Source: Rhizobium indicum
GTDB taxonomy: Bacteria; Pseudomonadota; Alphaproteobacteria; Rhizobiales; Rhizobiaceae
Assembly: GCF_005862305.2 (NCBI RefSeq)
Contig: NZ_CP054022.1
Coordinates: 1 to 64,000 of the forward strand
Direction: 5' to 3'
Length of the DNA stretch: 64,000 nucleotides
Translations under genes and position numbers: made by a program
Shown: positions 33,048 to 50,122 of the stretch, piece by piece
Position numbering within the stretch: position 1 is the stretch's first letter
Layout of the letters: each line of letters begins with the position of its first letter
Notes under the pieces: generated by a model
Database searches by the model: none
What the model was told of the DNA's origin: nothing
What the model saw: the letters and a program-made list of their open reading frames with translations, nothing else

Positions 33048-34385
33048 ATGGATGGACCTCTCGTCAGCTATTACGGGGATGACTTCACCGGCTCCACCGA
33101 TGTCATGGAGGCGCTGGCCTCGAACGGTGTGTCGACCGTGCTCTTCCTCGACGTTCCGACGCCGGAACTGTTCGCGCGCTTCAGGGATTGCCGGGCAATC
33201 GGCATTGCCGGAACAAGCCGCAGCGAGTCGCCCGCCTGGATGCAAGAGCACCTTGCGCGCGCTTTCGAATGGCTGAAGTCGCTCGGCGCCGACATCTGCC
33301 ACTACAAGGTCTGTTCGACTTTCGATTCCAGCCCCGAGATCGGCAATATCGGCAAGGCGATCGAAATCGGCCGCTCGGTATTCGGGCAATCCGTCGTGCC
33401 CGTCATCGTCGGCGCGCCGCAACTGAAGCGCTATACGGCATTCGGCAACCTCTTTGCCGCTTACCAGGGCCGGATCTTTCGCATCGACCGCCATCCCGTC
33501 ATGAGCCGCCATCCGGTGACCCCGATGGACGAGGCGGACCTTGCGGTGCATCTGTCGAAGCAGACCCGCCTTCCCGTCATGCTCGCCGATCTTGTCGCCA
33601 TCACCGCGCCGGATGCCGATGCGCGGATCGACGAACTGGCGTCGCCTTCGGAAGGGATCCTGCTCATCGATGTCGACTCCGAGGCGACGCAGGAGGCCGC
33701 GGGTCGGCAGTTGCTTCGTGCCACCGGCCGTTCCGGAAGCTTCGTCGCCGGCTCCTCGGGTGTCGAATATGCCCTGCTCAGCGCGTGGCGGCGGAGCGGT
33801 TTCATCGGCGCGAACAGCGCCGAGTTTCCCGATATCGGCCCGGTTGATCGCCTCGCCGTCGTCTCGGGCAGCGTATCGCCAACGACCGAGCGCCAGATCC
33901 GGACGGCTCTCGACAACGGCTTCGAGAGTATCGCGCTCGATCCGCTTGCACTGGTCTCGGAGCACGGCGAAGGCGCGATGGATGCAGCGGTAGAGGCCGG
34001 CATCCAGATGCTCCGGCAAGGCAAGAGCGTCATCCTCTATACCGCGCTTGGACCGTCCGCAGACCGCGGCGCCGACATCGACAGGCTTCCGGGTGCGCGT
34101 CACCGGCTCGGCAGCGCGCTCGGCACGATCTTGCGCCGCCTGATCGAGAGCGAAGCACTTTCACGTGCGGTCGTCGCCGGCGGCGACACATCCAGTCACG
34201 CACTGAGACAGTTGAAGATCGACGCGCTGACGACGCTTCTTCCGCTGCCCCAGACGCCGGGTTCTCCGCTTTGCCTTGCGCATGGCGACTATCAGCCGAC
34301 CAACGGCCTGCAGATCGCGCTTAAAGGCGGTCAGGTCGGGACGGACGGCTATTTCACGCAGATCCGCGACGGAAGGAAACACTGA
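33048..34385 (+). CDS. oiaK: Four-carbon acid sugar kinase family, 3-oxo-isoapionate kinase
   Basis: DUF1537-family kinase of 445 residues. The N-terminal substrate domain opens LVSYYGDDFTGSTDVMEAL, and the C-terminal nucleotide domain has SGSVSPTTERQI and VVAGGDTSSHALRQL (about 375-390), the glycine-rich ATP loop. It starts at ATG 33048, or at GTG 33039, which overlaps the oiaX stop (GTGA); both imply coupling. In the apiose pathway OiaK phosphorylates 3-oxo-isoapionate to its 4-phosphate, the substrate of the RuBisCO-like protein encoded immediately upstream. Family is certain; the specific substrate rests on gene context. Confidence 0.85.
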   Translation: MDGPLVSYYGDDFTGSTDVMEALASNGVSTVLFLDVPTPELFARFRDCRAIGIAGTSRSESPAWMQEHLARAFEWLKSLGADICHYKVCSTFDSSPEIGNIGKAIEIGRSVFGQSVVPVIVGAPQLKRYTAFGNLFAAYQGRIFRIDRHPVMSRHPVTPMDEADLAVHLSKQTRLPVMLADLVAITAPDADARIDELASPSEGILLIDVDSEATQEAAGRQLLRATGRSGSFVAGSSGVEYALLSAWRRSGFIGANSAEFPDIGPVDRLAVVSGSVSPTTERQIRTALDNGFESIALDPLALVSEHGEGAMDAAVEAGIQMLRQGKSVILYTALGPSADRGADIDRLPGARHRLGSALGTILRRLIESEALSRAVVAGGDTSSHALRQLKIDALTTLLPLPQTPGSPLCLAHGDYQPTNGLQIALKGGQVGTDGYFTQIRDGRKH

Positions 34386-34454: not shown

Positions 34455-34467
34455 CTCATCATACCAG
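34455..34467. promoter_or_regulatory. Apiose-regulon operator, copy 2 (apnO)
   Basis: CTCATCATACCAG, 40 bases upstream of apnO, overlapping a candidate -35 TTGACT (34451-34456). A flanking ATGGTGA to the left makes the site partly dyad-symmetric. It implies an internal promoter for apnO and the ABC transporter genes. Confidence 0.65.
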
Positions 34468-34506: not shown

Positions 34507-35334
34507 ATGACTAAGATTGCCCTCTTCGGCGCAGGCGGGAAAATGGGATACCGGCTCGCCAAAAATATCAAAGGCTCGCGTTTCCAAGTGCGCCATGTCG
34601 AGGTGAGCGACGCAGGCAAGGCCCGTTTGAAGAATGATCTCGGTGTCGATTGCGTACCCGTCGATGTCGGGCTCGACGGGGCCGACGTGGTGATCCTGGC
34701 CGTGCCGGACACGGCGATCGGCAAAGTCGCGGCAGGCATCGTCGACAAGCTCGCATCAGGCACCATGGTGATCGCGCTGGACGCTGCGGCTCCCTTTGCC
34801 GGCCACCTGCCGAAGCGTGACGATCTCACCTATTTCGTCACCCATCCCTGCCATCCGCCGATCTTCAATGACGAGACGGACATGCAGGCGAAAAAGGACC
34901 ACTTCGGCGGCCTCTTCGCCAAGCAGCATATCGTTTCGGCGCTGATGCAAGGCCCCGAAAGCGCCTACGCGCTCGGCGAGGAAATCGCCAAGCTGATCTG
35001 GGCCCCGGTCATGCGCTCGCACCGGGTCACGGTCGACCAGCTTGCCATGCTCGAACCGGGCTTGTCGGAAACCGTCTGCGCATCGCTGCTCGTCGTCATG
35101 CGACAGGCCATGGACGAATGCGTGGCACGCGGCGTGCCGGAACAGGCCGCCCGCGACTTCCTGCTCGGCCATATGAACGTGCTCGGCGCGGTCATCTTCA
35201 AGGAAGTCGACGGCGTGTTCTCGGATGCCTGCAACAAGGCGATCGAGTTCGGCATCCCGGCGCTGATGCGCGACGACTGGAAAAAGGTATTCGAACCGCA
35301 GGAGATCGCCGAAAGCATCCGGCGCATCACCTGA
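34507..35334 (+). CDS. apnO: D-apionate oxidoisomerase-like (phosphogluconate dehydrogenase C-domain family)
   Basis: A 275-residue NAD(P)-dependent enzyme with the Rossmann motif KIALFGAGGKMGYRLA (3-18), IALDAAAPF after the cofactor domain, and a helical 6-phosphogluconate-dehydrogenase-like C-terminal part. AAGGTGAGG precedes ATG 34507. In apiose catabolism ApnO converts D-apionate to 3-oxo-isoapionate by oxidation with carbon-skeleton isomerisation, the step that makes the OiaK substrate. Its place beside oiaX, oiaK, apsD and apnL supports this name. The motif THPCHPPIFNDE (about 115) is notable for possible metal ligands. It starts the second transcription unit, with its own copy of the shared operator. 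Confidence 0.82.
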   Translation: MTKIALFGAGGKMGYRLAKNIKGSRFQVRHVEVSDAGKARLKNDLGVDCVPVDVGLDGADVVILAVPDTAIGKVAAGIVDKLASGTMVIALDAAAPFAGHLPKRDDLTYFVTHPCHPPIFNDETDMQAKKDHFGGLFAKQHIVSALMQGPESAYALGEEIAKLIWAPVMRSHRVTVDQLAMLEPGLSETVCASLLVVMRQAMDECVARGVPEQAARDFLLGHMNVLGAVIFKEVDGVFSDACNKAIEFGIPALMRDDWKKVFEPQEIAESIRRIT

Positions 35335-36351
<1,017 letters not shown>

Positions 36352-36424: not shown

Positions 36425-37069
36425 ATGTTGAGAGTGAAGGGCGCCCTGCTCGCTGCCGTCGTGGCGGCCGCCTTGCCCGGTTGCAAGATCATCAAGACGC
36501 CGACGGCTGAGGAAAAGGCGGCGGCAGCGGCCAAGACCGCCTTCGATCCGAATGCCAAGGTCGAGGCAATCTGGCAGTCCGAGGCAGTGCCCTATTTCGA
36601 AAAGCGCGCCGGCGACCTCAAGGACGTCATGCAACTGGCAGCCTCCAGCCCCGACGCCGCAGGCGAGAAATACGGTAATCCCCGCAAGCAGAGCAGCTCG
36701 CCATGGACCTATGCGGTGAAGATCACCGGCAAGGTTGTCGCGGCCGATACAGGCTCGCGCGCGGCAACGCTCGATGTCGACGCCGATGGCGACGGCAAGG
36801 CCGACGCCAAGGTCCAGATCGGCCCGGCGCTGCGCGGCACGGCGCTGCGCGACACGTTGGAGTTCGTCAATTTCAACGAATTCAAGAACCAGATCGAATG
36901 GGCGCAGTTCGGCAAAGCCTTCAACGAGAAGGCCAATACCACCTTTCTCTCCGCCATCCCGCGTGAGGGCCTCGCCGGCAAGACGGTGACCGCGATCGGC
37001 GCTTTTCCGCTGCCGAAAAGCGGCGAGCTGCCGCTCGTCACGCCCTCGGAACTGAAGGTCGGCCCATGA
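36425..37069 (+). CDS. DUF2291 family lipoprotein
   Basis: A 214-residue protein with a lipoprotein signal (MLRVKGALLAAVVAAALPGC, lipobox LPGC, cysteine at 20). The mature part has the DUF2291 pattern: AFDPNAKVEAIWQSEAVPYFEKRAGDL, DVDADGDGKADAKVQIGPALRGTALRD and FVNFNEFKNQIEWAQFGKAFN. The DUF2291 family is found inside sugar ABC operons, where its role is not settled; a periplasmic accessory to the importer is likely. Its stop overlaps the ATPase start by 4 bases. Confidence 0.85.
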   Translation: MLRVKGALLAAVVAAALPGCKIIKTPTAEEKAAAAAKTAFDPNAKVEAIWQSEAVPYFEKRAGDLKDVMQLAASSPDAAGEKYGNPRKQSSSPWTYAVKITGKVVAADTGSRAATLDVDADGDGKADAKVQIGPALRGTALRDTLEFVNFNEFKNQIEWAQFGKAFNEKANTTFLSAIPREGLAGKTVTAIGAFPLPKSGELPLVTPSELKVGP

Positions 37070-38616
37070 CCACGGGAGAGGCACAAAAGGACGACATCAT
37101 CCTGCGCCTCGACGAGGTGTCGAAGGTCTATTCTGGCATCGTCGCCGTCAAGCGCGCCAATCTCGAGCTTCGCCGCGGCGCAGTGAACGTCCTTGTCGGC
37201 GAAAACGGTGCAGGCAAGTCGACGCTGATGAAGATCATCGCCGGTGTCGAACGTCCAACGCTCGGCCGCATCATTCTGGACGGCAAGCCCATATCCTTCG
37301 ACAGCCCGGCGCACGCGCAGGCGCACGGCATCGGCATGATCTTCCAGGAACTCAATCTCTTCGCCAACATGTCGGTCGCTGAGAATATCTTCACCACGCG
37401 TGAGATCACACGCGGCATCCTCGGCATCGATCACAAGGCACAAGTGCAAAAGGCCAATGCGTTTTTGAAGCGTCTCGATGCCGGCATCGAGGCCGGCACG
37501 ATGGTCGAGGATTTGCCGATCGGCCAGCAGCAGCTCGTCGAGATCGCCAAGGCGATGTCGTTGAATGCCCGGATCCTGATCATGGACGAGCCGACGTCGG
37601 CGCTTTCGGCAGCCGAAGTCGAGATCCTGTTCAAGGTGATCGCGGAACTGAAGGCCCAGGGTGTGGCAATCGTCTATATCTCGCACCGGCTCGAAGAGCT
37701 GATGCGGATCGGCGATTACATCACGGTGCTGCGTGACGGCCAGGTCACCGGCGAGGCGATGGTCCGCGACATCGACACGCGCTGGATCGTGCGCTCCATG
37801 ATCGGCTCGGATGCCAAGGATTTTGCAAAATCCGTGGACCACGCCGTCGGAGCCGAGGTCTTTCGCGCCGAAAACATCAGTCTGCCGCGGCCGACGGGTG
37901 GGCTTTCTGTCAACGATGTCTCGCTGTCGGTCAGGGCAGGTGAAATCCTCGGCATCTACGGCCTGATGGGGGCCGGGCGCAGCGAATTCTTCGAATGCGT
38001 GATCGGGCGGCACACACACTCGACCGGCAAGATCTTCATCGACGGCAAGCATGTTCGCGCCCGCGACACCACGCGGCGCATCCGCCGTGGCCTTGCGCTC
38101 ATTCCGGAAGATCGGCAGCGGGAAGGTCTCGTCCAGGTGCTCTCGATCGCCTCCAACCTGACGCTGGCGAGTCTTGGCCGCTTCACCCGGCTCTTCCATA
38201 TCGACAGGGGTGCGGAGAAGAGTGCCATTCGCGATGCAATCCGCGATCTTTCGATCAAGGCGCCGAACCCGGATTTCGAGGTGACCTCGATGTCGGGCGG
38301 CAACCAGCAGAAGGTCGTCATCGGTAAGGCGTTGATGACTAATCCGAAGGTGCTTCTGATGGACGAGCCGAGCCGTGGCATCGATGTCGGTGCCAAGGCC
38401 GACGTCTTTCGCACCATGCGGCGGCTGGCGGCAAACGGGCTCGCCATTCTGTTTTCGACTTCCGACCTCGAAGAGGTCATGGCGCTTTCCGATCGCATCG
38501 CGGTCTTGAGCAACGGCCAGCTGATCGCCGTCTTCGACCGCAACGAGGCCACGGAAGAAGCCATTATCGCGGCTTCGGCCAAGGGACACGGACATCAAGG
38601 GAAACTCGCGTCATGA
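37066..38616 (+). CDS. Sugar ABC transporter double ATP-binding protein (RbsA type)
   Basis: Tandem ABC ATPase of 516 residues. The first half has Walker A GENGAGKSTLMK (about 46) and LPIGQQQLVEIAKAM with Walker B ILIMDEPTSAL. The second half has the degenerate P-loop YGLMGAGRSEFFE, the signature MSGGNQQKVVIGKAL and KVLLMDEPSRGID. This is the ribose/monosaccharide type. It overlaps the DUF2291 gene by 4 bases at the start and the permease gene by 4 at the end, so all three are coupled. Confidence 0.93.
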   Translation: MTTGEAQKDDIILRLDEVSKVYSGIVAVKRANLELRRGAVNVLVGENGAGKSTLMKIIAGVERPTLGRIILDGKPISFDSPAHAQAHGIGMIFQELNLFANMSVAENIFTTREITRGILGIDHKAQVQKANAFLKRLDAGIEAGTMVEDLPIGQQQLVEIAKAMSLNARILIMDEPTSALSAAEVEILFKVIAELKAQGVAIVYISHRLEELMRIGDYITVLRDGQVTGEAMVRDIDTRWIVRSMIGSDAKDFAKSVDHAVGAEVFRAENISLPRPTGGLSVNDVSLSVRAGEILGIYGLMGAGRSEFFECVIGRHTHSTGKIFIDGKHVRARDTTRRIRRGLALIPEDRQREGLVQVLSIASNLTLASLGRFTRLFHIDRGAEKSAIRDAIRDLSIKAPNPDFEVTSMSGGNQQKVVIGKALMTNPKVLLMDEPSRGIDVGAKADVFRTMRRLAANGLAILFSTSDLEEVMALSDRIAVLSNGQLIAVFDRNEATEEAIIAASAKGHGHQGKLAS

Positions 38617-39677
38617 TGGCGGCTACATCAACCACTCTTGCGCCGAAGGGCGCCAACGGCTCGGCGCTTCTGACGCTGATGAAGCTCAGGACGTTCATCG
38701 CGCTATTCGCGGTCATCATCTTCTTTGCGATCTTCGCCCCGAACTTCACCTCGACGGCGAACATGATCCTGATGTCGAAGCATGTGGCGCTGAACGCCTT
38801 CCTGGCGATGGGCATGACCTTCGTCATCATCACCGGCGGCATCGATCTCTCGGTCGGATCGATCGTCGGGCTTTGCGGCATGGTCGCCGGCGGCCTGATC
38901 CTTTACGGCATCGAATTGCCGATCGGCTACACGATCTTTTTTAATCTCTTCGAGATCGTGCTGATCACCTTGTCGATCGGCTTGCTTATCGGTCTGATCA
39001 ACGGCCTGCTGATCACCAAGCTCAACGTCGCGCCCTTCATTGCCACACTCGGCACGCTCTATATCGCCCGCGGCCTCGCTTTGCTGTCGTCGGACGGCCA
39101 GACGTTTCCGAACCTTGTCGGCCGGCCTGAATATGCCACGACCGGCTTCGATTTCTTCGGCGCGGGGCGCATCCTCGGTCTGCCGGTATCGATCTGGATT
39201 CTGATCGTGCTTGCGCTGCTGGCCGCCTATGTCGCCCGCTCGACGCCGATCGGCCGTCACATCTTCGCCGTCGGCGGCAATGAGCGGGCCGCGCGCATGT
39301 CCGGTATCCGGGTCGATGTCGTGAAGATCTTCGTCTACATGTTCTCCGGACTTTGCGCCGCCATCGTCGGCGTCATCATCTCCTCCGAACTGATGGCAGC
39401 CCATCCGGCGACCGGTGAAAGTTTCGAACTCAATGCGATTGCCGCAGCCGTGCTTGGCGGCACCTCGATGTCGGGCGGACGCGGCACGATCGGCGGCACG
39501 ATCATCGGCGCCTTCGTCATCGGCATCCTCTCCGACGGATTGGTGATGATGGGCGTTTCCTCCTTCTGGCAGATGGTCATCAAGGGCCTCGTCATCATCA
39601 TTGCTGTCGTCGTCGACCAGGCCCAGCGCCGCCTGCAGCAGCGCGTTACCCTCATGCAGATGGCAAAGGCAGGTTGA
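38613..39677 (+). CDS. Sugar ABC transporter permease (RbsC type)
   Basis: Inner-membrane permease of 354 residues with about ten hydrophobic segments. Family hallmarks are GMTFVIITGGIDLSVGSIVGLCGM (about 70-93), LNVAPFIATLGTLYIARGLALL, and the cytoplasmic loop GGNERAARMSGIRVDVVKIFVYMFSGL. Probably homodimeric in the monosaccharide importer. Only one base separates its stop from the apsD start, linking uptake to the first catabolic step. Confidence 0.93.
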   Translation: MMAATSTTLAPKGANGSALLTLMKLRTFIALFAVIIFFAIFAPNFTSTANMILMSKHVALNAFLAMGMTFVIITGGIDLSVGSIVGLCGMVAGGLILYGIELPIGYTIFFNLFEIVLITLSIGLLIGLINGLLITKLNVAPFIATLGTLYIARGLALLSSDGQTFPNLVGRPEYATTGFDFFGAGRILGLPVSIWILIVLALLAAYVARSTPIGRHIFAVGGNERAARMSGIRVDVVKIFVYMFSGLCAAIVGVIISSELMAAHPATGESFELNAIAAAVLGGTSMSGGRGTIGGTIIGAFVIGILSDGLVMMGVSSFWQMVIKGLVIIIAVVVDQAQRRLQQRVTLMQMAKAG

Positions 39678-39678
39678 G

Positions 39679-40713
39679 ATGACGGAATTGAAAGGGGCTT
39701 TGATCGGTTGCGGTTTCTTTGCGGTCAACCAGATGCACGCCTGGAATGACGTTCGGGGTGCCCGCGTCGTCGCGATCTGCGACCGCGACCCGGAACGGCT
39801 GAAGATCGTCGGCGATCAGTTCGGCATCGATCGCCGCTATAGCGATGCCGAGGCGTTGTTCGCCGATGGCGGTTTTGATTTCGTCGATATTGCCACGACT
39901 GTCCAAAGCCACCGCACCCTCGTCGAAATGGCGGCTCGGAACAAGGTGCCGGCCATCTGCCAGAAGCCGTTCGCCAAAACCTTGTCGGACGCGAAGGCGA
40001 TGGTCGAGGCGTGTCGCAATGCCGGCATACCGCTGATGGTGCACGAGAACTTTCGCTGGCAGACGCCGATCCAGGCGGTGCGGAAGGCGCTCGAGGAGGA
40101 TGGCATCGGCACGCCCTTCTGGGGGCGCTTCTCCTTCCGTTCGGCCTACGACGTATTTTCCGGCCAGCCCTATCTGGCCGAGGGCGAGCGGTTCATCATT
40201 GAAGACCTCGGCATCCATACGCTCGACATCGCCCGCTATATCCTAGGCGACGTTCGCTCGCTCACGGCCCGCACCAAGCGGGTCAATCCCGGAATCAAGG
40301 GCGAGGATGTCGCGACCATTCTGCTCGATCATGAAAACGGCGCCACATCGGTCGTCGACGTCAGCTACGCCACCAGGCTTTCCAGGGAGCCATTCCCCGA
40401 GACCTTGATCGAGCTCGACGGTTCTGAGGGCACGATCCGTCTGACCCAGGGTTACCGCCTGGAAATCACCAACGCCAGGGGCACCATCACCACTGACGTA
40501 TCGCCGAAGCTGCTGTCATGGGCCTCGCGGCCCTGGCACAATATCCAGGAGAGCGTCTACGCGATCCAGCAGCATTGGGTTGATAAGTTGGAGCGCGGCG
40601 CGGAGCACTCGACATCAGGGGCCGACAATCTGAAGACTTTCGCGCTCGTCGAGGCCGCTTATGACAGTGCGGTCAGGGGACAGACGATCGATGTCGGAGC
40701 GATGCTGCGATGA
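39679..40713 (+). CDS. apsD: Gfo/Idh/MocA oxidoreductase, D-apiose dehydrogenase
   Basis: NAD(P)-dependent Gfo/Idh/MocA-family dehydrogenase of 344 residues. The Rossmann motif is LIGCGFFAVNQMHAW (about 7-21). The catalytic lysine is in AICQKPFAKTL (about 95, replacing the common EKP), and the substrate-side motif is EDLGIHTLDIARYILGD (about 178). ApsD oxidises D-apiose to D-apionolactone. The lactonase gene follows with a 4-base overlap, matching that product. Start chosen at ATG 39679, right after the permease stop; an upstream frame is a permease shadow. Confidence 0.85.
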   Translation: MTELKGALIGCGFFAVNQMHAWNDVRGARVVAICDRDPERLKIVGDQFGIDRRYSDAEALFADGGFDFVDIATTVQSHRTLVEMAARNKVPAICQKPFAKTLSDAKAMVEACRNAGIPLMVHENFRWQTPIQAVRKALEEDGIGTPFWGRFSFRSAYDVFSGQPYLAEGERFIIEDLGIHTLDIARYILGDVRSLTARTKRVNPGIKGEDVATILLDHENGATSVVDVSYATRLSREPFPETLIELDGSEGTIRLTQGYRLEITNARGTITTDVSPKLLSWASRPWHNIQESVYAIQQHWVDKLERGAEHSTSGADNLKTFALVEAAYDSAVRGQTIDVGAMLR

Positions 40714-42569
40714 CGGTCGATGCGTTCCAGCTCTACGGCACTCGCCTCGTCGAAACGCCGCCGGTTCGGCTGAGAGCCGGAAAACTGGAAGCCGATCTCA
40801 CCAATGGCAACCTCCGCACCATCCGCTACGATGGGACCGAGGTGCTGCGAGCGATTTCATACCTCGTTCGCGACCGGGACTGGGGCACCTACAGCCCTGA
40901 AATTGTTGATCTCCGGATCGAGCAGAGTGACGATCGTTTCGCGGTCGCCTATCGGGCCCGCTGCGAAGGACCGGATGATACGAGGCTTGCCATTGACGTT
41001 CGCATCACCGGAAGCGCGGACCGGCTCGACTTCGAGGCCGAAGCCATCACGGAGACCGGCTTCGAGACCAATCGCTGCGGCTTCTGCATCCTGCATCCGA
41101 TTGTCGGCGTGGCGGGCTCGCCGGCAACGGTCGAGCATGTCGACGGCCGGATAGTGGCAACGCAGTTTCCCGATGTCATCGAGCCCTGGCAGCCTTTCAA
41201 GGACATGCGCGCCATCACCCACGCGGTCATGCCTGACGTTCAGGCGGAATGCCGGATGGAGGGCGACACTTTTGAAATGGAAGATCAGAGGAACTGGTCG
41301 GACGCATCCTATAAGACCTATGTCAGGCCGCTCGCCCTGCCCTGGCCCTACCAGATTGCCGCCAATCAGCCTGTCCGGCAGAAAACGTCGCTTGTTATCA
41401 GGGATATCGGCGGCTCGACACGGCATTCTCCTGGGGTGTCAGGCGGCGCCATAAAACTTGAACTTGGGTCCTGCACCGGCACCATGCCTGATATCGGCGT
41501 GATCATTACACCCGAAGAGGCCGATGCGAGCCTCTCGGCAAAGTCCGTCCTGACGGAGATCGCTCCCCAGGAACTCCTCTTCCATTTCGATCCCGATGCC
41601 GGGCACGGCGTCGAGGCGTTCAGGCGGTTTGCTGCGATCGCCACACTCCATCGCGGCCGCTCGACGCTGGAGATCGCCCTTGCCTGCAAATCGGTCCCGG
41701 CGAGCGAGACCTCCGAGATTGCCCGCCAGATGCAGCTCGCGGAATTCAGGCCCGATGCGATCATGATATCGCCATCCGTCGACCGGCAATCGACGCCGCC
41801 CGGCAGCACATGGCCGGAATGCCCGCCGCTGGATGAAGTCTATACCGCCGCCCGCGCCGCCTTTCCCGGCATTCGCATCGGCGGCGGCATGCTGAGCTAT
41901 TTCACCGAACTCAACCGGAAGCGCGTCCCCGATGGACAGCTCGACTTCGTCAGCCACTGCACCAACCCGATCGTGCATGCTGCCGACGATCTCAGCATCA
42001 TGCAGACATTAGAAGCGCTGCCCTTCATCACGCGGTCGGTGCGTGCGATCTACGGCGACAAACCCTACCGGATCGGCCCGTCGACCATCCCGATGCGGCA
42101 GAACCCCTATGGCAGCCGCACGATGGACAATCCTGTGAGCGCACGCATCCCGATGGCCAATCGTGACCCGCGCCATAATGGACGCTTCGGACAGGCCTTC
42201 GCGTTCGGATATGCAATACGAGTGCTGGATGCCGATCTGGAATGCCTGACGTTATCAGCCTTGACCGGTCCGTTCGGCCTGATCGCTGGTCCGGGGGAAC
42301 CGATCGAACCGGGGGGGCGTCGTCCGCTGTTCGATACCGTGCGGACACTGTGTCAATTGGCTGGTGCAACCTGGCGGGAATGCGTCTCCTCCTCTCCCTC
42401 CGAGGTCCTGTCTTTCGTTGCAAGGGATACTACAGGCGCCAGGCTTTACGTCGTCAATCTGACGAGCGAAGAACGAAAGGTCGATTGCGGCGCATGCGGG
42501 CCGGCAGATGCGGGCAAAGAGTTGCTGCTCGCGCCGTTTGCGACCGCAGCATTGCCGCTGGCGGATTGA
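40710..42569 (+). CDS. apnL: D-apionate lactonase
   Basis: A 619-residue cytoplasmic protein without signal peptide, in the position and size of ApnL, which hydrolyses D-apionolactone to D-apionate. I recognise no standard lactonase motif. The first 200 residues look beta-rich (VRLRAGKLEADLTNGNLRTIRYDGTEVLRAI); the middle part looks like an alpha/beta barrel (SYFTELNRKRVPDGQLDFVS, HAADDLSIMQTLEALPFI) and resembles glycoside-hydrolase clan proteins. Overlaps apsD by 4 bases (ATGA). Name rests on context with apsD, apnO, oiaK and oiaX; confidence moderate to good. Confidence 0.8.
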   Translation: MTVDAFQLYGTRLVETPPVRLRAGKLEADLTNGNLRTIRYDGTEVLRAISYLVRDRDWGTYSPEIVDLRIEQSDDRFAVAYRARCEGPDDTRLAIDVRITGSADRLDFEAEAITETGFETNRCGFCILHPIVGVAGSPATVEHVDGRIVATQFPDVIEPWQPFKDMRAITHAVMPDVQAECRMEGDTFEMEDQRNWSDASYKTYVRPLALPWPYQIAANQPVRQKTSLVIRDIGGSTRHSPGVSGGAIKLELGSCTGTMPDIGVIITPEEADASLSAKSVLTEIAPQELLFHFDPDAGHGVEAFRRFAAIATLHRGRSTLEIALACKSVPASETSEIARQMQLAEFRPDAIMISPSVDRQSTPPGSTWPECPPLDEVYTAARAAFPGIRIGGGMLSYFTELNRKRVPDGQLDFVSHCTNPIVHAADDLSIMQTLEALPFITRSVRAIYGDKPYRIGPSTIPMRQNPYGSRTMDNPVSARIPMANRDPRHNGRFGQAFAFGYAIRVLDADLECLTLSALTGPFGLIAGPGEPIEPGGRRPLFDTVRTLCQLAGATWRECVSSSPSEVLSFVARDTTGARLYVVNLTSEERKVDCGACGPADAGKELLLAPFATAALPLAD

Positions 42570-42624: not shown

Positions 42625-43629
42625 ATGAAGACGAAGAAGCTTATCAATGCCGGCGCAGATGCCGTCGATGAGATGCTGCAAGGGGTGTTGGCGGCGCATC
42701 CGCGCCACCTGTACGCCGTGGAGGACATGCCCCGCGCGATCATTGCCAGAAACGGGCCGCGCAGGGGCAAGGTCGGGCTGGTCATCGGCGGTGGATCCGG
42801 GCACGAACCGACATTTCTGGGGTTTGTCGGCAAAGGCCTCGCAGACGCGGCCGCGATCGGCAACGTCTTCGCCTCGCCGCCGCCCGATCCGATCGTCGCC
42901 TGCGCCATGGCGGTCGACGGCGGCGCCGGTGTCCTGTTCATGTATGGCAATTATGCCGGCGACGTGATGAACTTCGACATGGCTGCCGAGATGCTTGCGC
43001 TTGACGAGATCGAGGTACGCACGGTGCTCACCACGGATGACGTGGCGTCTGCCCCTGCCGATCAGAGGGACAAGCGACGAGGCGTGGCGGGCAACGTCTT
43101 CATCTTCAAGGCTGCCGGCGCGGCCTGCGATCTTCTCTATTCCTTTGACGATGTCGAGCGTGTCGCCCGCCATGCCAATGCGCGAACCTATACGATGGGT
43201 GTCGCGATTTCGCCCTGTTCGCTGCCCCAGACCCTCCGACCAAACTTCCTGATCGGCGAAGGCGAGATGGAGATCGGAATGGGTATCCATGGGGAGCCTG
43301 GCGTGGCGCGCGAGCCGCTGAGGCCGGCCGACGCGGTGACCGACGAACTCATGGACCGCATTCTTCGCGAAATGAAAGCAGACCGGGGCGATCGTGTCGC
43401 TGTGCTCGTCAATTCGCTGGGTTCGACGCCGATGATGGAACTCTACATCATGATGCGGCGCGTGAAGTCCCGGCTCGACGATGCCGGGCTCGTCATCCAT
43501 ACATCGCTTGTCGGAAACTACTGCACCTCTCTCGAAATGGCAGGCGCGTCGATCACGATCATGCATCTCGACGACGAACTTCAGCGATTGATCGACCACC
43601 CCTGTGATTGCGCGATGTTTGCGAGGTAA
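42625..43629 (+). CDS. dhaK: Dihydroxyacetone/erythrulose kinase, DhaK subunit
   Basis: Substrate-binding subunit of a DhaK-type kinase, 334 residues, start ATG 42625 with GGAGGA four bases upstream. The glycine-rich region VIGGGSGHEPTFLGFVGKGL (about 53-72) and the histidine that forms a hemiaminal with the ketose (IGMGIHGEPG, His222) are present. DhaK proteins phosphorylate short ketoses such as dihydroxyacetone or, in several pathways, L-erythrulose. Here it follows apnL, suggesting action on C3/C4 ketoses from apiose breakdown. No DhaM (PTS) gene is nearby, so ATP is the likely phosphate donor with DhaL. Confidence 0.88.
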   Translation: MKTKKLINAGADAVDEMLQGVLAAHPRHLYAVEDMPRAIIARNGPRRGKVGLVIGGGSGHEPTFLGFVGKGLADAAAIGNVFASPPPDPIVACAMAVDGGAGVLFMYGNYAGDVMNFDMAAEMLALDEIEVRTVLTTDDVASAPADQRDKRRGVAGNVFIFKAAGAACDLLYSFDDVERVARHANARTYTMGVAISPCSLPQTLRPNFLIGEGEMEIGMGIHGEPGVAREPLRPADAVTDELMDRILREMKADRGDRVAVLVNSLGSTPMMELYIMMRRVKSRLDDAGLVIHTSLVGNYCTSLEMAGASITIMHLDDELQRLIDHPCDCAMFAR

Positions 43630-43632
43630 TCG

Positions 43633-44277
43633 ATGACGTTTACCACCGAAGACCTGCAGCGTTTGTTTGCCGGGATTGCCGAGGATATCGCGGCGGAACG
43701 AGATCATCTTTGCGAGCTGGACGGTGCCATCGGCGATGGAGATCACGGCCTTGCCATGGATGCAGGCTGCCAGGCCGCGGCGAAGGCGGTCGGCGAACTT
43801 GACGCCGGAATTGCCCCAACAACCGCATTCAACGTCGCGGCTAAGGCATTCCTGAATGCGGTCGGCGCTTCGTCCGGCCCGCTCTACGCCACGGCCTTCA
43901 TGCGCGCCGGAGCAGCCGCCAAAGACAAGCAGACATTGAGCGATGACGACTTCCTCAGCGTCTTTGCGGCAATGGCGCAGGGAATCCAGGAACGCGGAAA
44001 GGCCGAACCCGGTGAAAAGACGATGGTTGACGCCTGGAAACCCGCGGCTGACGCAGCTCTCGATGCCCGTCAGTCGGGAAAGCCCCTCCCCCAATGCTTC
44101 GAGACGGCCGAGCGGGCAGCGCGCGCGGGCTGCGAAGCGACCAGCAGCATGACGGCGGCCAAGGGACGGGCTTCGCGATTGGGGGACCGTGTGATCGGGC
44201 ACATCGATCCCGGCGCCGCCTCGGCCGTCATCATCATCGCCGCGATGGCCAAATTTGCCCAACATCACGATGGTTAG
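43633..44277 (+). CDS. dhaL: Dihydroxyacetone/erythrulose kinase, DhaL subunit
   Basis: Nucleotide-binding subunit of 214 residues. The metal/phosphate motif DGAIGDGDHG (aspartates 35 and 37, His38), ASSGPLYATAFM and GEKTMVDAWKPA are diagnostic of DhaL. The GRASRLGDRVIGHIDPGAAS loop closes the nucleotide site. It lies 3 bases after dhaK and forms the kinase with it. The stop codon abuts the third copy of the shared operator, so the apiose unit and the next transporter operon are separated only by that control region. Confidence 0.9.
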   Translation: MTFTTEDLQRLFAGIAEDIAAERDHLCELDGAIGDGDHGLAMDAGCQAAAKAVGELDAGIAPTTAFNVAAKAFLNAVGASSGPLYATAFMRAGAAAKDKQTLSDDDFLSVFAAMAQGIQERGKAEPGEKTMVDAWKPAADAALDARQSGKPLPQCFETAERAARAGCEATSSMTAAKGRASRLGDRVIGHIDPGAASAVIIIAAMAKFAQHHDG

Positions 44278-44302
44278 CTCATCATACCAGTTGACATGTC
44301 AA
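44278..44302. promoter_or_regulatory. Apiose-regulon operator, copy 3 (second ABC importer)
   Basis: CTCATCATACCAG (44278-44290) directly followed by the palindrome TTGACATGTCAA (44291-44302), whose first six bases are a consensus -35. It sits 47 bases upstream of the second binding-protein gene. Confidence 0.65.
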
Positions 44303-44348: not shown

Positions 44349-45602
44349 ATGCTGACCCTTTCTGCGAAATTGAAGACCGCGAGCATCGTTGCGATCGCCG
44401 TGGCGTCACTATCGGCCACGCCGGTTCTTGCTGAAGACATCACGCTCTGGACCCTCAACTTCGACAACAATGCCGCCAATACGGCCCTGAAGAAGGTGGC
44501 GACGGACTTCGAAGCGGCAAACCCCGGGACGCATGTCGAGATCGTTCAGCGCGCCGTCGACGAGCACAAGACCGCCTTGCGTGTCGCTGCTGGCTCCGAC
44601 AAGGGACCCGATATTTATTTCAGCTGGGCCGGCCTCGGTCTCGGTGGTGAATATGTGAAGGCCGGTCTGTCCCTACCCCTCGACAAATACTATGCCGAGT
44701 ATAAGTGGAACGACGAATTGCTGCCCTCGGCAGCGGCTTTTGCCGACCTCTATCCCGGCGGCAAACACGGCGTCCCCTTCACCTTCAAGGGTGAGGCCGT
44801 CTATTACAACAAGAAGCTTTTCGAACAGGCCGGCATCAAGGAAGAGCCCAAGACCTACGAGGAATTCCTTGCCGCGGCCGATAAGCTGAAGGCTGCCGGC
44901 ATCCCTGCCTTCACCTTCGGCGGCACGGTCAACTGGCACGTCATGCGCCTCATGGACGTCATCCTTGAAACGAAGTGCGGTGCTGAGAAACACGATGCAC
45001 TGAAGGCGATGACGCTGGACTGGACCAAGGAACCCTGTGCGACGGAATCCTTCGCGGAGTTTGCGAAGTGGACGAAGGACTATACGCTGCAGCCGTTCAT
45101 GGGCATCGACAACAAACAGTCCTATAGCCTCTTCACCGCAGGCCGTGCGGCGATGATGCTCGAAGGCGACTGGCTGGTCAGCCAGCTCGACGGCTCCGGC
45201 GCTAATCTCGACGACTACGGCATTTTCCCCTTCCCGACCAACACCGATCGTCTCTACGGTTTCGCCGAGTACAATTACATCAGCACCAAGAGCAAGAGCC
45301 CTGACGTAGCGGCGAAGTTCCTCGACTACTTCCTCTCGACGAAAGTCCAGCAGGACCTGCTCGGCCAGCTGAGTTCGACCTCCGTCAACAAGAACGTACA
45401 ATATGCCAACCAGAAGCCGCTCGAGGCGGAATGGCTGGGGATCTTCCAGAAATACGGCAAAGTGTACATGAACGGCGACCAGGCGTTCCCGCTCGACGTC
45501 ACGACGGAGTACTTCCGGGTCATCAACGATGTTGCTTCCGGCAACACCGAGCCGGCCGATGCCGCCAAGCAACTGCAGAGCTTCATCGCAAGCCGAACCT
45601 GA
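44349..45602 (+). CDS. Oligosaccharide ABC transporter substrate-binding protein (family 1)
   Basis: Extracellular solute-binding protein family 1 (UgpB/MalE-like), 417 residues, start supported by AGAGGAGG. The signal peptide MLTLSAKLKTASIVAIAVASLSATPVLA ends near residue 28. Mature features are WTLNFDNNAANTALKKVATDFEAANPG, DIYFSWAGLGLGGEYVKAG and GVPFTFKGEAVYYNKKLFEQAGI. It heads an operon of two permeases, a glycosidase and an ATPase. Given the shared operator with the apiose genes and the apiosidase-like enzyme, its ligand may be an apiose-containing glycoside or oligosaccharide (inference). Confidence 0.88.
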   Translation: MLTLSAKLKTASIVAIAVASLSATPVLAEDITLWTLNFDNNAANTALKKVATDFEAANPGTHVEIVQRAVDEHKTALRVAAGSDKGPDIYFSWAGLGLGGEYVKAGLSLPLDKYYAEYKWNDELLPSAAAFADLYPGGKHGVPFTFKGEAVYYNKKLFEQAGIKEEPKTYEEFLAAADKLKAAGIPAFTFGGTVNWHVMRLMDVILETKCGAEKHDALKAMTLDWTKEPCATESFAEFAKWTKDYTLQPFMGIDNKQSYSLFTAGRAAMMLEGDWLVSQLDGSGANLDDYGIFPFPTNTDRLYGFAEYNYISTKSKSPDVAAKFLDYFLSTKVQQDLLGQLSSTSVNKNVQYANQKPLEAEWLGIFQKYGKVYMNGDQAFPLDVTTEYFRVINDVASGNTEPADAAKQLQSFIASRT

Positions 45603-45695
45603 TTCCTCCCGAGGTGCCAGTCGATCGACCCAGCTGTCGATCGACCGGCACATTCTTTCATCAGCTGGCAGCCGCTTCACTGCCAGGAGGAAAGC

Positions 45696-46595
45696 ATGTC
45701 ACTTCGACAATCGACACATGATCCGCGCGTACAAGCGCTCATCCTGCTCGTGCCAGCACTCGCGATTTACGCGGTCTTCGCGCTCTACCCGATGCTCAAC
45801 GTCGTGATCCTGAGCTTTCAGAAATGGAACGGGCTCGATCCCAATCGACAATTCGTGGGGATTGCGAACTACCAGGCGATTTTCACAAGAGATCCTGTGT
45901 TCTGGGTTGCCTTTCGCAACACGGTGATCTGGACCTTGATGAGCCTGATCTTCCCGCCGATGGTCGGACTGCTGCTGGCGCTCAGCCTCAACCAGAAGAT
46001 ATTCGGCCGAAATGGCCTCAGGGCCATCTTCTATCTGCCTGTCATCATCGCGCCGATCGCGGTGGCCACCATGTGGAAGTGGATGTACGATCCGTTCTTC
46101 GGCCTTTTCAGCCAGTTGCTCACCTCGTGGGGCATGCAAGGCTGGATCAATGACTGGCTGGGCAACCGGGATATCGCCCTTTATTCGGTCTTCGTCGCCT
46201 ATCTCTGGCAGACGGTCGGCTTCTCGATGGTCCTGTTCCTGGCGGGCCTGCAGAACGTCTCCCAGACACTCGTCGAGGCCGCCCGCATCGATGGCGCCGG
46301 CCGCTGGGCGGTGTTCAAGCATGTGACATTGCCGGCCTTGCGCCCGACGATCACGATCGTTCTCGTTCTTTCCGTTATCTCCTCCTTGAAGGCCTTCGAC
46401 ATCGTCTACGGCCTGACCGGCGGCGGGCCGGCGCAGTCCACTCAGATGCTGGCGCTCTGGGCATTCACGCAGGCGATGCAGATCTTCGATTTCGGACGAG
46501 GCGCGGCGATTTCGGTCGTGCTGCTGCTGATCACCATGGCCGTCGTCATTCCCTATCTCAAATGGACCCAGAAGCACGAGGAGGTTGAATCGTGA
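45696..46595 (+). CDS. Oligosaccharide ABC transporter permease (MalF/UgpA type)
   Basis: Inner-membrane permease of 299 residues with six hydrophobic segments. It has the EAA loop QTLVEAARIDGAGRWAVFKHVTLPALRPT (about 188-216) that contacts the ATPase, and the segment YGLTGGGPAQSTQMLALWAF typical of sugar permeases. A 93-base gap separates it from the binding-protein gene; AGGAGG precedes the ATG. It overlaps the next permease gene (GTGA). Confidence 0.92.
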   Translation: MSLRQSTHDPRVQALILLVPALAIYAVFALYPMLNVVILSFQKWNGLDPNRQFVGIANYQAIFTRDPVFWVAFRNTVIWTLMSLIFPPMVGLLLALSLNQKIFGRNGLRAIFYLPVIIAPIAVATMWKWMYDPFFGLFSQLLTSWGMQGWINDWLGNRDIALYSVFVAYLWQTVGFSMVLFLAGLQNVSQTLVEAARIDGAGRWAVFKHVTLPALRPTITIVLVLSVISSLKAFDIVYGLTGGGPAQSTQMLALWAFTQAMQIFDFGRGAAISVVLLLITMAVVIPYLKWTQKHEEVES

Positions 46596-47476
46596 CAGCA
46601 GTACCGACCGACCAGACCGCAGTGCATCTGCAGGTCGAACCATCGTCGATGAAGCGGGATCCGATTCTGATCGGCCTCTGGATCACGCTTGTTATCGTGG
46701 CGCTCGTCTGGGTCGCGCCATTCGTCTTCATCGTCTTCACCTCCTTGAAGACGCCGGCGGCGGTGACAGGTACGGGCGCCTTCGTGCCGCCAACCGAGCT
46801 CGCTTTCGAAAACTACAGCGCCGCATGGAGCCGCGGCAACTTCGCAAACTCCTTCTTCAACAGCGTCATCATCACCGTCATCAAGGTGCCGCTCGGGCTG
46901 TTCCTTTCGGCGATGGCTGCCTATGCCTTGGCCAAGATCAAGCTGAAAATCACCAAGGCCCTGCTGCTGCTTGTGGTGTTCGGCACGATGATCCCCTTCC
47001 AGGTGATGCTTGCGCCGCTCTTCACCCTGGTGAATTCACTCGGCCTGATCGACACCTACCCCGGCGTCATCCTTCCCTACATCGCCTTCGGCGTTCCCTA
47101 TCAGGTTTTCATCCTGCACGGCTTCTTCAAGAGCATCCCCAAGGAGCTGTCGGAAGCAGCGCTGATCGACGGTGCCAGCCACTTCATCATCTTCAGACGG
47201 ATCTTTCTGCCGGTGTGCCTGCCCGTGCTCGCCGCACTGCTCATCCTCGACTTCGTCTCCACCTGGAACGAATTCGCCATGGCGCTGGTGCTGCTCCAGG
47301 ATCAGCACATGTGGACCTTGCCGCTCGGCCTGATGTCGTTTCAGGGGCAGTTCTCGAGCAATTACGGCCAGCTCAATGCGGCCATCGTGATGACCGTCCT
47401 GCCGGCGACGATCGTCTATCTCATCTTCCAGCGTTATTTCGTCTCTGGCCTGACCTCCGGCGCCGTCAAAGGCTAG
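46592..47476 (+). CDS. Oligosaccharide ABC transporter permease (MalG/UgpE type)
   Basis: Inner-membrane permease of 294 residues beginning at GTG 46592, overlapping the previous stop by 4 bases. Features are a first helix at about 30-50, and the EAA loop PKELSEAALIDGASHFIIFRRIFLPVCLP (about 180-208). The C-terminal YLIFQRYFVSGLTSGAVKG is the MalG-type end. Pairs with the upstream permease. The 34-base gap to the glycosidase gene includes an AGGAGAAT ribosome site. Confidence 0.92.
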   Translation: MTAVPTDQTAVHLQVEPSSMKRDPILIGLWITLVIVALVWVAPFVFIVFTSLKTPAAVTGTGAFVPPTELAFENYSAAWSRGNFANSFFNSVIITVIKVPLGLFLSAMAAYALAKIKLKITKALLLLVVFGTMIPFQVMLAPLFTLVNSLGLIDTYPGVILPYIAFGVPYQVFILHGFFKSIPKELSEAALIDGASHFIIFRRIFLPVCLPVLAALLILDFVSTWNEFAMALVLLQDQHMWTLPLGLMSFQGQFSSNYGQLNAAIVMTVLPATIVYLIFQRYFVSGLTSGAVKG

Positions 47477-47510
47477 GGCCACGAATAGCATTCCACGAGG
47501 AGAATATTCT

Positions 47511-49031
47511 ATGTCTGATGCAACAGTCGAAAAATGGGGCGTGTTCGAGGCCTCCTTTGATGGACCCTCCAGCGACAATCCCTATCTCGACGTGGCATTC
47601 GATGCCGTGTTCACCCATAAGAGCCGCGAAGTCCGCGTGCCGGGCTTCTATGACGGCGACGGGACCTACCGTATCCGCTTCATGCCGGACATAGAAGGCG
47701 AGTGGTCGTTTCTGACCCGCTCCAAGACTGCCGCACTCGACGGCAAGGCCGGCGCATTGATCGCGACCGAGCCCTTGGCCGGCAATCACGGCCCGGTGCG
47801 CGTGCGCAACAAATTCCACTTCGCCTATGCCGACGGAACCCCGTTCCTGTCCTTCGGAACGACCTGCTACGCTTGGACGCACCAGCCGCTCGACATGCAG
47901 AAGCAGACCCTCGAAACCCTCAAGAAAGCCCGTTTCAACAAGATGCGGATGGGCGTGTTTCCGAAGGACTATCCCTACAACGTCAACGAGCCGCTGCACG
48001 CCTCCTTCGAACGCGGAGCGGACGGGAAGGAAGACTTCGATCGTCCGAACCCCGCCTCGTTCCAGCACTTCGAGAAGCAGGTCGCAGCCCTCTGCGAATT
48101 GGGGATCGAAGCGGATATTATCATTTTCCACCCCTATGACCGGTGGGGTTATGCCGACATGTCGGCCGAACAGGATTTTCGCTATGTCGAATATCTGGCC
48201 GCTCGTCTCGCCGCCTACCGGAACGTCTGGTGGTCGCTTGCCAATGAATATGATTTCCTCATCGATACAAAGCCGATGGAGCAGTGGGATCGCTACTTCC
48301 ACATCCTGGAAGAGAACGACCCCTACCAGCACCTGCGCTCCATCCATAATGGCGACGTGACGGCGAATTTCGATCATCGCAAGCCGTGGGTGACGCACAC
48401 CTGCATTCAAAACCCTGACGTCAAGCGGACGCAGGAATGGCGCGATGCCTACGGCAAGCCTGTCGTCAACGACGAGCCCGAATATGAGGGCGACATCCTG
48501 CAGTCATGGGGCAACCTCAATGCGCAGGAGCTCGTGCATCGCTTCTGGATCACCATGGCGCGCGGCGGCTATGCCGGGCATGGCGAAACCTATTCTCATC
48601 CCGAGGACCTGATTTGGTGGGCCAAAGGCGGGGAACTGCGCGGCGAAGCGTGGAAGCGCATCGCCTTCCTCCGCGACCTTCTGGAAGCCGATGTCAAGCA
48701 CGGCCTCGAGCCGCTGGGCATCATCGGCGAATGGCCCTGGTCTCGCGTGTCGGGCGCGCGCGACGGCGACGGCGATTTCCGCCTGATCTATTTCGGCGAG
48801 CATCAGCCGGTGATCTGGTCCACGGGCCTGCCCGTGGACGGTGACTATTATGATGTCGATCTCATCGACACATGGGAGATGACGATCACGCCGGTGGAGA
48901 AGGTGGCGGCTCCCGTTCCGCATCCGACGCGCCATGGCTCGGTCGTGCGCGGCGGCAAGCCGGACGCTGCCTTCGGCGTGAAAATTCCGCGCAAGCCGTA
49001 CCAGGCGCTGCGCGTGCGCAGGAAGCTCTAG
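47511..49031 (+). CDS. Cytoplasmic apiosidase-like glycosidase (DUF5060-DUF4038 type)
   Basis: A 506-residue protein without signal peptide. N-terminal beta domain (about 5-80, DUF5060-like: WGVFEASFDGP, FYDGDGTYRIRFMPDIEGEWSF). Then a TIM-barrel (about 100-400) of the DUF4038/apiosidase type: FLSFGTTCYAWTHQ, FNKMRMGVFPKDY, and candidate catalytic acids Glu246 in WSLANEYDF and Glu322/Glu324 in VVNDEPEYEGD. The C-terminal beta part is DUF5605-like. Enzymes of this fold (GH140) release apiose from plant pectin. Placed inside a sugar ABC operon that shares an operator with the D-apiose genes, it probably cleaves imported apiosides in the cytoplasm. Family is good, substrate inferred. Confidence 0.75.
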   Translation: MSDATVEKWGVFEASFDGPSSDNPYLDVAFDAVFTHKSREVRVPGFYDGDGTYRIRFMPDIEGEWSFLTRSKTAALDGKAGALIATEPLAGNHGPVRVRNKFHFAYADGTPFLSFGTTCYAWTHQPLDMQKQTLETLKKARFNKMRMGVFPKDYPYNVNEPLHASFERGADGKEDFDRPNPASFQHFEKQVAALCELGIEADIIIFHPYDRWGYADMSAEQDFRYVEYLAARLAAYRNVWWSLANEYDFLIDTKPMEQWDRYFHILEENDPYQHLRSIHNGDVTANFDHRKPWVTHTCIQNPDVKRTQEWRDAYGKPVVNDEPEYEGDILQSWGNLNAQELVHRFWITMARGGYAGHGETYSHPEDLIWWAKGGELRGEAWKRIAFLRDLLEADVKHGLEPLGIIGEWPWSRVSGARDGDGDFRLIYFGEHQPVIWSTGLPVDGDYYDVDLIDTWEMTITPVEKVAAPVPHPTRHGSVVRGGKPDAAFGVKIPRKPYQALRVRRKL

Positions 49032-49051
49032 AAGATGACAAGGGGTACGAA

Positions 49052-50122
49052 ATGTCTGGCTTGAGCATCAGAAACGTCAAGAAATCCTTCGGCCCGGTCG
49101 ATATCATTCATGGTGTCGACGTCGAGATCGCCGACGGTGAATTCACCATTCTCGTCGGCCCCTCCGGCTGCGGCAAGTCGACATTGCTGCGCATGATTGC
49201 CGGGCTCGAGGATATCACCGCCGGTCAAATCAGCATTGACGGCCGGGTCGTGAACAATCTGCAGCCGAAGGATCGCGATATCGCGATGGTCTTCCAGAAC
49301 TATGCGTTGTACCCGCAGATGACGGTCTCCCAGAACATGGGATTTGCGCTCGAGCTCGCCGGGGCCAAGCGGCCGGAAATAGAACAGAAGGTCGGTGAGG
49401 CTGCGGCAATTCTCGGATTGCAGCCGCTTCTCGATCGAAAGCCGGCTCAGCTGTCGGGCGGACAGCGACAGCGCGTCGCCATGGGCCGGGCCATCGTTCG
49501 CGATCCGAAAGTCTTTCTCTTCGACGAGCCGCTCTCCAATCTGGATGCGAAACTGCGCGTGAAGATGAGAGCGGAGATCAAGGCTCTGCACCAGCGCCTG
49601 AAGACCACGATCGTTTACGTCACCCACGACCAGATCGAGGCCATGACCATGGCTGACAAGATCGTCGTGCTCCACGGCGGTCGCGTCGAACAGATCGGCA
49701 GTCCGCTCGAGCTCTACGACCGACCGCGCAATATGTTTGTCGCCGGCTTCCTCGGTTCCCCCGCGATGAACTTTCTCGAGGGAACTCTTGAGGGCGCAGG
49801 CAAGCCGGCATTGTCGCTGCCGGGTGGGTCACGCGTAGCGCTTTCGCGGGCTCCAGCCAATTCCGCCAACAGACCGCTGACGCTGGGTATCCGTCCCGAA
49901 GACATCACCTTCGGTGGCGAAAACGGTGTGGATGCCGTGGTCAAGGTGGTCGAACCCACGGGATCGGAAACCCATGTCGCCGTGGAACTCGAAGGCAGGG
50001 AGCTGACATGGGTCGTTCGCGAACGTGTCGAGCTGGTGCCGGAACAGCCGGTAAAGCTTTCTTTCGAAACGGCCAAGGTTCACTTCTTCGATCGGCAGAC
50101 GCAGCAGCGCCTGAACGCCTGA
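49052..50122 (+). CDS. Sugar ABC transporter ATP-binding protein (UgpC/MalK type)
   Basis: ABC ATPase of 356 residues starting MSGLSIRNVKKSFGPVDIIHG, with AAGGGG upstream. Walker A is GPSGCGKSTLLR (about 36), the signature LSGGQRQRVAMGRAI, Walker B VFLFDEPLSNLDAKLR, and the C-terminal regulatory TOBE part contains LTLGIRPEDITF. It completes the second importer with the binding protein and permeases upstream. Being the last gene, it could also energise related importers elsewhere, as MalK-type subunits sometimes do. Confidence 0.93.
   Translation: MSGLSIRNVKKSFGPVDIIHGVDVEIADGEFTILVGPSGCGKSTLLRMIAGLEDITAGQISIDGRVVNNLQPKDRDIAMVFQNYALYPQMTVSQNMGFALELAGAKRPEIEQKVGEAAAILGLQPLLDRKPAQLSGGQRQRVAMGRAIVRDPKVFLFDEPLSNLDAKLRVKMRAEIKALHQRLKTTIVYVTHDQIEAMTMADKIVVLHGGRVEQIGSPLELYDRPRNMFVAGFLGSPAMNFLEGTLEGAGKPALSLPGGSRVALSRAPANSANRPLTLGIRPEDITFGGENGVDAVVKVVEPTGSETHVAVELEGRELTWVVRERVELVPEQPVKLSFETAKVHFFDRQTQQRLNA

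Follow-up and report, generated by a model that had tools for sequence, protein, structure and literature searches.

A probable apioside importer with a cytoplasmic DUF5060/PF13204/DUF5605 hydrolase beside the D-apiose genes of Rhizobium indicum

The window analysed here, the first 64,000 nucleotides of contig NZ_CP054022.1 of Rhizobium indicum (assembly GCF_005862305.2), carries at 44349-50122 a block of five plus-strand genes, which profile scans read in order as a solute-binding protein (SBP), two permeases, a DUF5060 enzyme and a UgpC/MalK-type ATPase. As judged from sequence and genomic context, the block quite probably encodes an importer for small apiosides from plants together with an apiosidase that stays in the cytoplasm. 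A previous sequence-only reading had set a binding protein, two permeases and a MalK-type ATPase around a DUF5060 protein, and all five were found as described in place, strand and order:

44349..45602, + strand: family-1 solute-binding protein with a signal peptide (SBP_bac_1, 113.6 bits; hydropathy), proposed apioside binder
45696..46595, + strand: importer permease 1 (BPD_transp_1)
46592..47476, + strand: importer permease 2 (BPD_transp_1)
47511..49031, + strand: DUF5060/PF13204/DUF5605 cytoplasmic glycoside hydrolase, proposed apiosidase (three domain matches)
49052..50122, + strand: UgpC/MalK-type ATPase (NF008653, 504.9 bits, cut-off 432; ABC_tran, OB_MalK and TOBE_2), with the reading frame scanned from 49049 and its first ATG at 49052

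The domain set of a CUT1 ABC importer is complete, comprising SBP_bac_1, two BPD_transp_1 and a MalK-type ATPase with OB/TOBE domains. Solved relatives of the SBP (E 1.6e-25 to 7.5e-12) are mostly oligosaccharide binders, including xylo-, chito-, manno- and malto-oligosaccharide types. The top 17 plasmid records, which include R. indicum, R. leguminosarum and R. johnstonii, are 95-99% identical to the block. In Rhizobium johnstonii 3841 its five genes are found on pRL12 as RL_RS34820 to RL_RS34840, RL_RS34825 being the enzyme gene and RL_RS34840 the SBP gene. No passage on these genes was found in the available portions of PMC3333776 and PMC11103875 with the pRL12 gene numbers, apiose and similar terms.

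The protein encoded at 47511-49031 matched DUF5060 (91.1 bits), PF13204 'Apiosidase' (73.6 bits, cut-off 26.5) and DUF5605 (55.2 bits), all above their cut-offs, with DUF5605 occupying the C-terminus, and the genome encodes no other PF13204 protein. The maximal 15-residue hydropathy within its first 40 residues is 0.2, against 2.17 for the SBP. Among 45 aligned enzyme sequences, the window's own included, hydropathy revealed no signal peptide in any; 28 of them start at Met and the other 17 where the database match begins, the latter being extended upstream for this check. Upstream start codons (at most 121 residues) were tried too and gave no value above 0.96. By these values the enzyme is cytoplasmic, in agreement with the DUF5060/DUF4038 protein without signal peptide that had been described before.

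The enzyme has the fold of a TIM-barrel glycosidase, and both of its catalytic positions are occupied by a Glu that never varies, Glu246 and Glu322, each present in 45/45 aligned sequences. Glu246 and the pair Glu322/Glu324 had been put forward earlier; the first two hold, and Glu324 was ruled out as a catalytic residue, as it is kept in only 37 of the 45 and is Gly in 4n0r. Because Glu324 is not invariant, Glu322 is the candidate of the pair. KPVxxxEPxYE is the commonest form of the surrounding motif (P323 in 34/45), and it is also found in the glycoside hydrolase family 140 (GH140) apiosidase 8t9w. By the usual GH-A layout, Glu246 would most likely be the acid/base and Glu322 the nucleophile.

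The nearest solved relative is 4n0r, the 'putative glycoside hydrolase' BVU_0362 of Bacteroides vulgatus, whose aligned chain is numbered from residue 23, suggesting a removed export signal, whereas the window's enzyme carries none. The characterised apiosidases known so far are exported enzymes, and on this point, too, the enzyme departs from the GH140 members, lacking a signal peptide in all 45 sequences. In a weak profile alignment (E 0.0015, probability 16%) to a GH140-like protein, Glu322 falls on the conserved Glu of the second catalytic position of GH140, and Glu246 on an Asp whose counterpart in 3kzs is the Asp of GGD. That the enzyme is a GH140 apiosidase of the ordinary kind and has merely lost its signal peptide is barely credible as an explanation: GH140 apiosidases are distant, at 16-17% identity; BT1012 (3kzs/5msy) and 8t9w carry Asp (taken as BT1012 Asp187) where the enzyme has Glu246; DUF5060 and DUF5605 are added, while BT1012 is described with a PF12904 domain and without mention of DUF5060; and the signal is absent from every aligned sequence. 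Taken together, this looks like a separate lineage. PF12904 had no match in the enzyme or anywhere in the genome, and a single genome among 327 from the class has it. Filing the enzyme as a GH140 apiosidase was ruled out on the missing PF12904 and the Glu for Asp. In the 2014 paper on BT1012, Asp187, a position taken by Glu in 17.3% of PF13204, is the nucleophile/base and Glu284 the proton donor, the reverse of the roles assigned here by GH-A convention. The enzyme probably works like an apiosidase, one outside classical GH140.

Directly upstream of the block, on the same strand, lies a D-apiose catabolic cluster, headed by a divergent regulator gene:

30905..31627, - strand: GntR/FCD (NanR-like) regulator, divergent from oiaX, proposed operator regulator (GntR and FCD domains; NCBIfam NanR subfamily, 364 bits, cut-off 260)
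31786..33042, + strand: OiaX, RuBisCO-like 3-oxo-isoapionate-4-phosphate decarboxylase (NF042437, 783.5 bits, cut-off 700)
33048..34385, + strand: OiaK-like 3-oxo-isoapionate kinase (NF042436, 486.6 bits, under the cut-off of 700)
34507..35334, + strand: phosphogluconate-dehydrogenase-like protein, proposed D-apionate oxidoisomerase ApnO (PF16896, 240.9 bits; no NCBIfam match at 1e-20)
35410..36351, + strand: ribose-type solute-binding protein, proposed D-apiose binder (99% identical to 4ry0; matches 5ibq also)
36425..37069, + strand: DUF2291 lipoprotein of the monosaccharide importer (PF10054, 208 bits; 29% identity to the DUF2291 protein of the Escherichia coli SE15 apiose cluster)
37066..38616, + strand: sugar ABC ATPase of the monosaccharide importer (48% identity to the SE15 apiose-cluster ATPase)
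38613..39677, + strand: permease of the monosaccharide importer (56% identity to the SE15 apiose-cluster permease)
39679..40713, + strand: Gfo/Idh/MocA dehydrogenase, proposed D-apiose dehydrogenase (PF01408, PF22725), scanned from 39676, with the start set by the length of the 3841 gene
40710..42569, + strand: ApnL, D-apionate lactonase (NF049900, 1051.5 bits, cut-off 750)
42625..43629, + strand: DhaK-like kinase subunit (Dak1, 401.7 bits), scanned from 42628, with an ATG at 42625
43633..44277, + strand: DhaL-like kinase subunit (Dak2, 169.8 bits; TIGR02365, 188.3 bits, cut-off 138.3)

The oxidative D-apiose pathway is marked by ApnL and OiaX, both above curated cut-offs. The proposed dehydrogenase and ApnO show superfamily domains only, with no specific model above its cut-off; presumably, for ApnO partly on grounds of position, they carry out the steps that their names indicate. 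The oiaX counterpart in R. johnstonii 3841 is named OiaX in RefSeq, and its annotated start would correspond to 31747, while the 3841 gene at the place of apnL, RL_RS34855 (L167:11359-13221), is called a hypothetical protein in the plasmid record. The gene for the ribose-type SBP is RL_RS34880 in that strain. Structure 4ry0 is the solved RHE_PF00037 of Rhizobium etli CFN 42, and 5ibq reportedly contains bound apiose. A perfect 24-base palindrome at 36367-36390, between the ribose-type SBP gene and the DUF2291 gene, is probably an intercistronic stem-loop. The DhaK- and DhaL-like genes (42625-44277) stand between apnL and the block, and both occur near the enzyme in 23 of 80 related loci, the best kept from a scan of 589 relatives with one genome per species, a set that leans to close kin.

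The cluster and the block share an operator. Exact CTCATYATACCAG occurs in the 7.53-Mb genome only at 31718, 34455 and 44278, that is, before oiaX, the apnO-like gene and the importer SBP gene:

31718..31730, + strand: operator copy 1, CTCATTATACCAG, between the regulator gene and oiaX
34455..34467, + strand: operator copy 2, CTCATCATACCAG, before the apnO-like gene
44278..44290, + strand: operator copy 3, CTCATCATACCAG, just before the importer block

The shared operator invoked by the sequence-only reading is borne out in this way, all three exact genomic copies lying in this cluster. With one mismatch allowed, the genome holds seven sites against four for the reversed control, so four one-mismatch sites are at noise level. 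Within the window, five matches with at most two mismatches compare with 1.23 expected, and 1 of 100 shuffles reached five. At up to one mismatch in the 80 related loci, 42 of 43 sites precede the SBP gene of the block or an apiose gene, while the reversed pattern gave one site. Chance as the origin of the motif was ruled out by the genome, shuffle and 80-locus counts.

Upstream positions were counted, again at up to one mismatch, in the 66 of the 80 loci that have an SBP gene of more than 45% identity. The operator precedes the SBP gene in 35 of these, against 10 of 2000 random 280-base windows from the same loci. By context, it was present in 29/34 loci beside oxidative genes, 0/8 beside AptA, 1/16 near a ROK regulator (five of the 34 oxidative loci are among these 16) and 6/13 with none of the three (L096, L097, L099, L122, L126 and L142). 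The genomes of all six carry ApnL elsewhere (five above the cut-off, one below), so unlinked blocks that keep the motif still look like members of an apiose regulon. In 14 loci fetched around apiose genes of same-family genomes, all 13 sites precede such genes and three loci have no site. From its position, we infer that the GntR regulator binds the operator; this NanR-like protein would probably switch three transcription units through one 13-bp operator.

Two further features of these loci were recorded. A ROK regulator gene lies near the block in 16 of the 66 (L108, L110, L111, L129, L146, L149 and others), 15 of which lack the GntR-type operator before the SBP gene, a regulator swap. Downstream of the block in L096, L097, L099 and L122 stands an FGGY kinase with 39-40% identity to an apulose-kinase homologue, and beside it a protein family of which the one scanned member (576 residues) had no Pfam match.

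The link to apiose genes is kept across genomes. A search of 394 same-family genomes found the enzyme in 25, ApnL in 110 and an apiose-type binding protein in 91. ApnL accompanies the enzyme in 21 of 25 genomes, compared with 89 of the 369 genomes that lack it (P 2e-9, kinship ignored), and ApnL or the apiose-type SBP does so in 22 of 25, in 17 of 20 once the own genus is excluded (P 1e-7, kinship ignored) and in 12 of 13 by genus. The other three enzyme genomes (G117, G222 and G245), plus G295, hold homologues of the SE15 AptA, AptB and kinase (38-46% identity) beside the block. Within about 10 kb, 8 of the 25 enzyme loci, that of the own genome included, adjoin oxidative genes, 4 the transketolase set and 13 neither, and the five-gene block is present in all 24 other loci. 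AptA alone was dropped as an apiose marker, as 107 of the 394 genomes match it; a homologue in the present genome, an AptA-like half transketolase on contig 1 (5021570-5022385) with 84% identity to the L065 copy, also lies away from the block.

For the 80 wider loci, matches were called by tblastn (1e-25, half coverage) within 10 kb of the block. Loci with ApnL or OiaX were classed as oxidative, and those with AptA, or with ApsI-like/FucIso together with the ribose-type SBP at 60% or AptB, as transketolase-type. On this scheme 35 loci are oxidative, 19 transketolase-type and 26 neither, giving 54/80 linked; nine stretches are shorter than 19 kb, and the other 71 divide into 33, 18 and 20. Among the 26 unlinked genomes, 17 have ApnL elsewhere (14 above the cut-off), and eight of the nine without it have AptA homologues at 45-54% identity, a weak sign since AptA is common; a Tardiphaga metagenome-assembled genome (MAG) has neither. 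Transketolase loci are better supported by a ribose-type SBP homologue (10/19) or by several pathway genes together.

A quick tree of 90 enzyme rows, with long branches flagged and the DUF5060 paralogue of L152 left out for a stop in its matched stretch, requires at least six changes between oxidative and transketolase neighbours, so the link between enzyme and apiose genes seems to have been remade several times. Placement of the protein with non-apiose DUF5060 hydrolases, named earlier as a refutation, is not seen among the 80 closest loci, distant DUF5060 contexts lying outside this sample. All four transport genes are found in 64 of the 80 loci, always in the window's order; in ten loci the importer is of the Opp type, with SBP_bac_5 and oligopeptide-type ATPases in the scanned representatives, and is accompanied by a second DUF5060 gene; the remaining six are cut short or diverged. 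The ten are nine Devosia and one Anaerolineae (L125, L127, L128, L132, L133, L137, L139, L152, L162 and L164). The last, an Anaerolineae MAG, has in a row the enzyme twice, an Opp-type importer, a regulator, AptA, AptB, a kinase and an isomerase. An Acidobacteriota MAG (L151) joins the block to a dehydrogenase and ApnL, and a Planctomycetota MAG (L153) to a ribose-type importer and an isomerase. In the tree the enzymes of L151 and L153, 64-65% identical to that of the window, fall among alphaproteobacterial ones; given this placement and their origin in metagenome bins, wrong binning or transfer is possible. In a Rubellimicrobium MAG (L156:4025-11500), seemingly three DUF5060-type genes lie together with ApnL; of the two additional ones, one was scanned.

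In the proposed mechanism, the SBP would act in the periplasm, catching an oligosaccharide or glycoside that contains apiose, and the two permeases with the MalK-type ATPase, judging by their families, would import it intact. The DUF5060/PF13204/DUF5605 enzyme would then hydrolyse it in the cytoplasm, and the D-apiose freed would be oxidised by the neighbouring dehydrogenase, ApnL, ApnO-like, OiaK-like and OiaX proteins. A separate ribose-type importer would take up free apiose. Apioside import is the best reading because the block adjoins apnL/oiaX-type apiose genes and has its operator in common with them, because the association is kept in many genomes with two alternative apiose pathways, and because the enzyme folds as a TIM-barrel glycosidase in which the Glu at both catalytic positions is invariant. 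The idea that intact apiosides are imported and apiose is released inside the cell, as first suggested from this DNA, is supported by context, operator, fold and Glu246/Glu322. As substrates, a fragment of rhamnogalacturonan II (RG-II) and a flavonoid apioside cannot be told apart; legume flavonoid apiosides (PMC10589286) are one possible source.

Two observations weigh against apioside import: 26 of the 80 loci are unlinked to apiose genes within 10 kb, and the fold is as close to a GH5 mannanase. They bear on an enzyme for an apiose-free glycoside, such as a mannoside, under a common regulon because both substrates meet in plant material. This is very unlikely, as the association outlasts at least six pathway switches, an exchange of importer type and cluster separation with the operator kept, and as identity to the mannanase ManDH5 is only about 16-17%.

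Rhamnose is linked to apiose in RG-II. The imported compound might contain apiose while the enzyme cuts another bond, for example by removing a different sugar from an apiose residue; apiose would then be left at the reducing end, or an additional enzyme would release it. All the context evidence fits any apiose-containing substrate, and a Lactobacillus jensenii cluster, in the part accessible of PMC10711310, sets DUF5060/DUF4038 genes beside an alpha-rhamnosidase. Such a different cleavage is nonetheless improbable, given the PF13204 membership, the catalytic-loop motif that also occurs in the GH140 apiosidase 8t9w, and a genome with no other PF13204 protein to release the apiose, a search confined to that family.

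Beyond apioside import by the block itself, a broader proposal seems reasonably likely: DUF5060/PF13204/DUF5605 proteins may represent a separate intracellular beta-apiosidase lineage, in effect a new GH family or subfamily, forming a portable apioside import module that has been combined with two unrelated apiose pathways, with importers of at least two types (MalK and Opp) and with a number of regulators (GntR operator, ROK and DeoR-type), and that may reach four phyla, three of them from metagenome-assembled contigs only. In databases the family is called only 'DUF5060 domain-containing protein', with at least 8000 relatives, and an importer-coupled apiosidase would supply it with a function. 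No importer-coupled intracellular apiosidase appeared among the matches listed in the open-licence literature, as judged by titles and the beginnings of abstracts.

Descriptions of apiose catabolism have started at the free sugar; an importer-coupled intracellular route would explain how rhizobia and other bacteria of the soil obtain apiose without sharing it. Binding proteins of the ribose type were reportedly used by Carter et al. in 2018 to find D-apiose pathways, which are said to begin with free apiose. In contrast to those pathways, a second importer and an intracellular glycosidase here precede catabolism. The D-apiose pathways have ApnL, OiaX, the ribose-type binding protein and DUF2291 in common with this cluster, and their alternative AptA/AptB/kinase set is the one beside the block in other genomes. 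From what is available of PMC11747546, growth on D-apiose was seen in a strain of the Rhodobacteraceae whose annotation includes the same five enzyme activities. The apiose cluster of E. coli SE15 belongs to an ST131 lineage, tested strains of which grew on D-apiose, and like the window it has a ribose-type importer with DUF2291, as far as the accessible text of PMC13001218 tells. Its aptA, aptB and kinase are homologous to genes beside the block in other genomes, but its 10 genes annotated in that text include neither a DUF5060 enzyme nor a MalK-type importer, both of which the window has. With CUT1 (MalFGK-type) importers that work with intracellular glycosidases, the block shares an SBP, two permeases, a MalK-type ATPase and a cytoplasmic hydrolase, whereas it differs from them in the proposed substrate class, apiosides, and in the family of the hydrolase.

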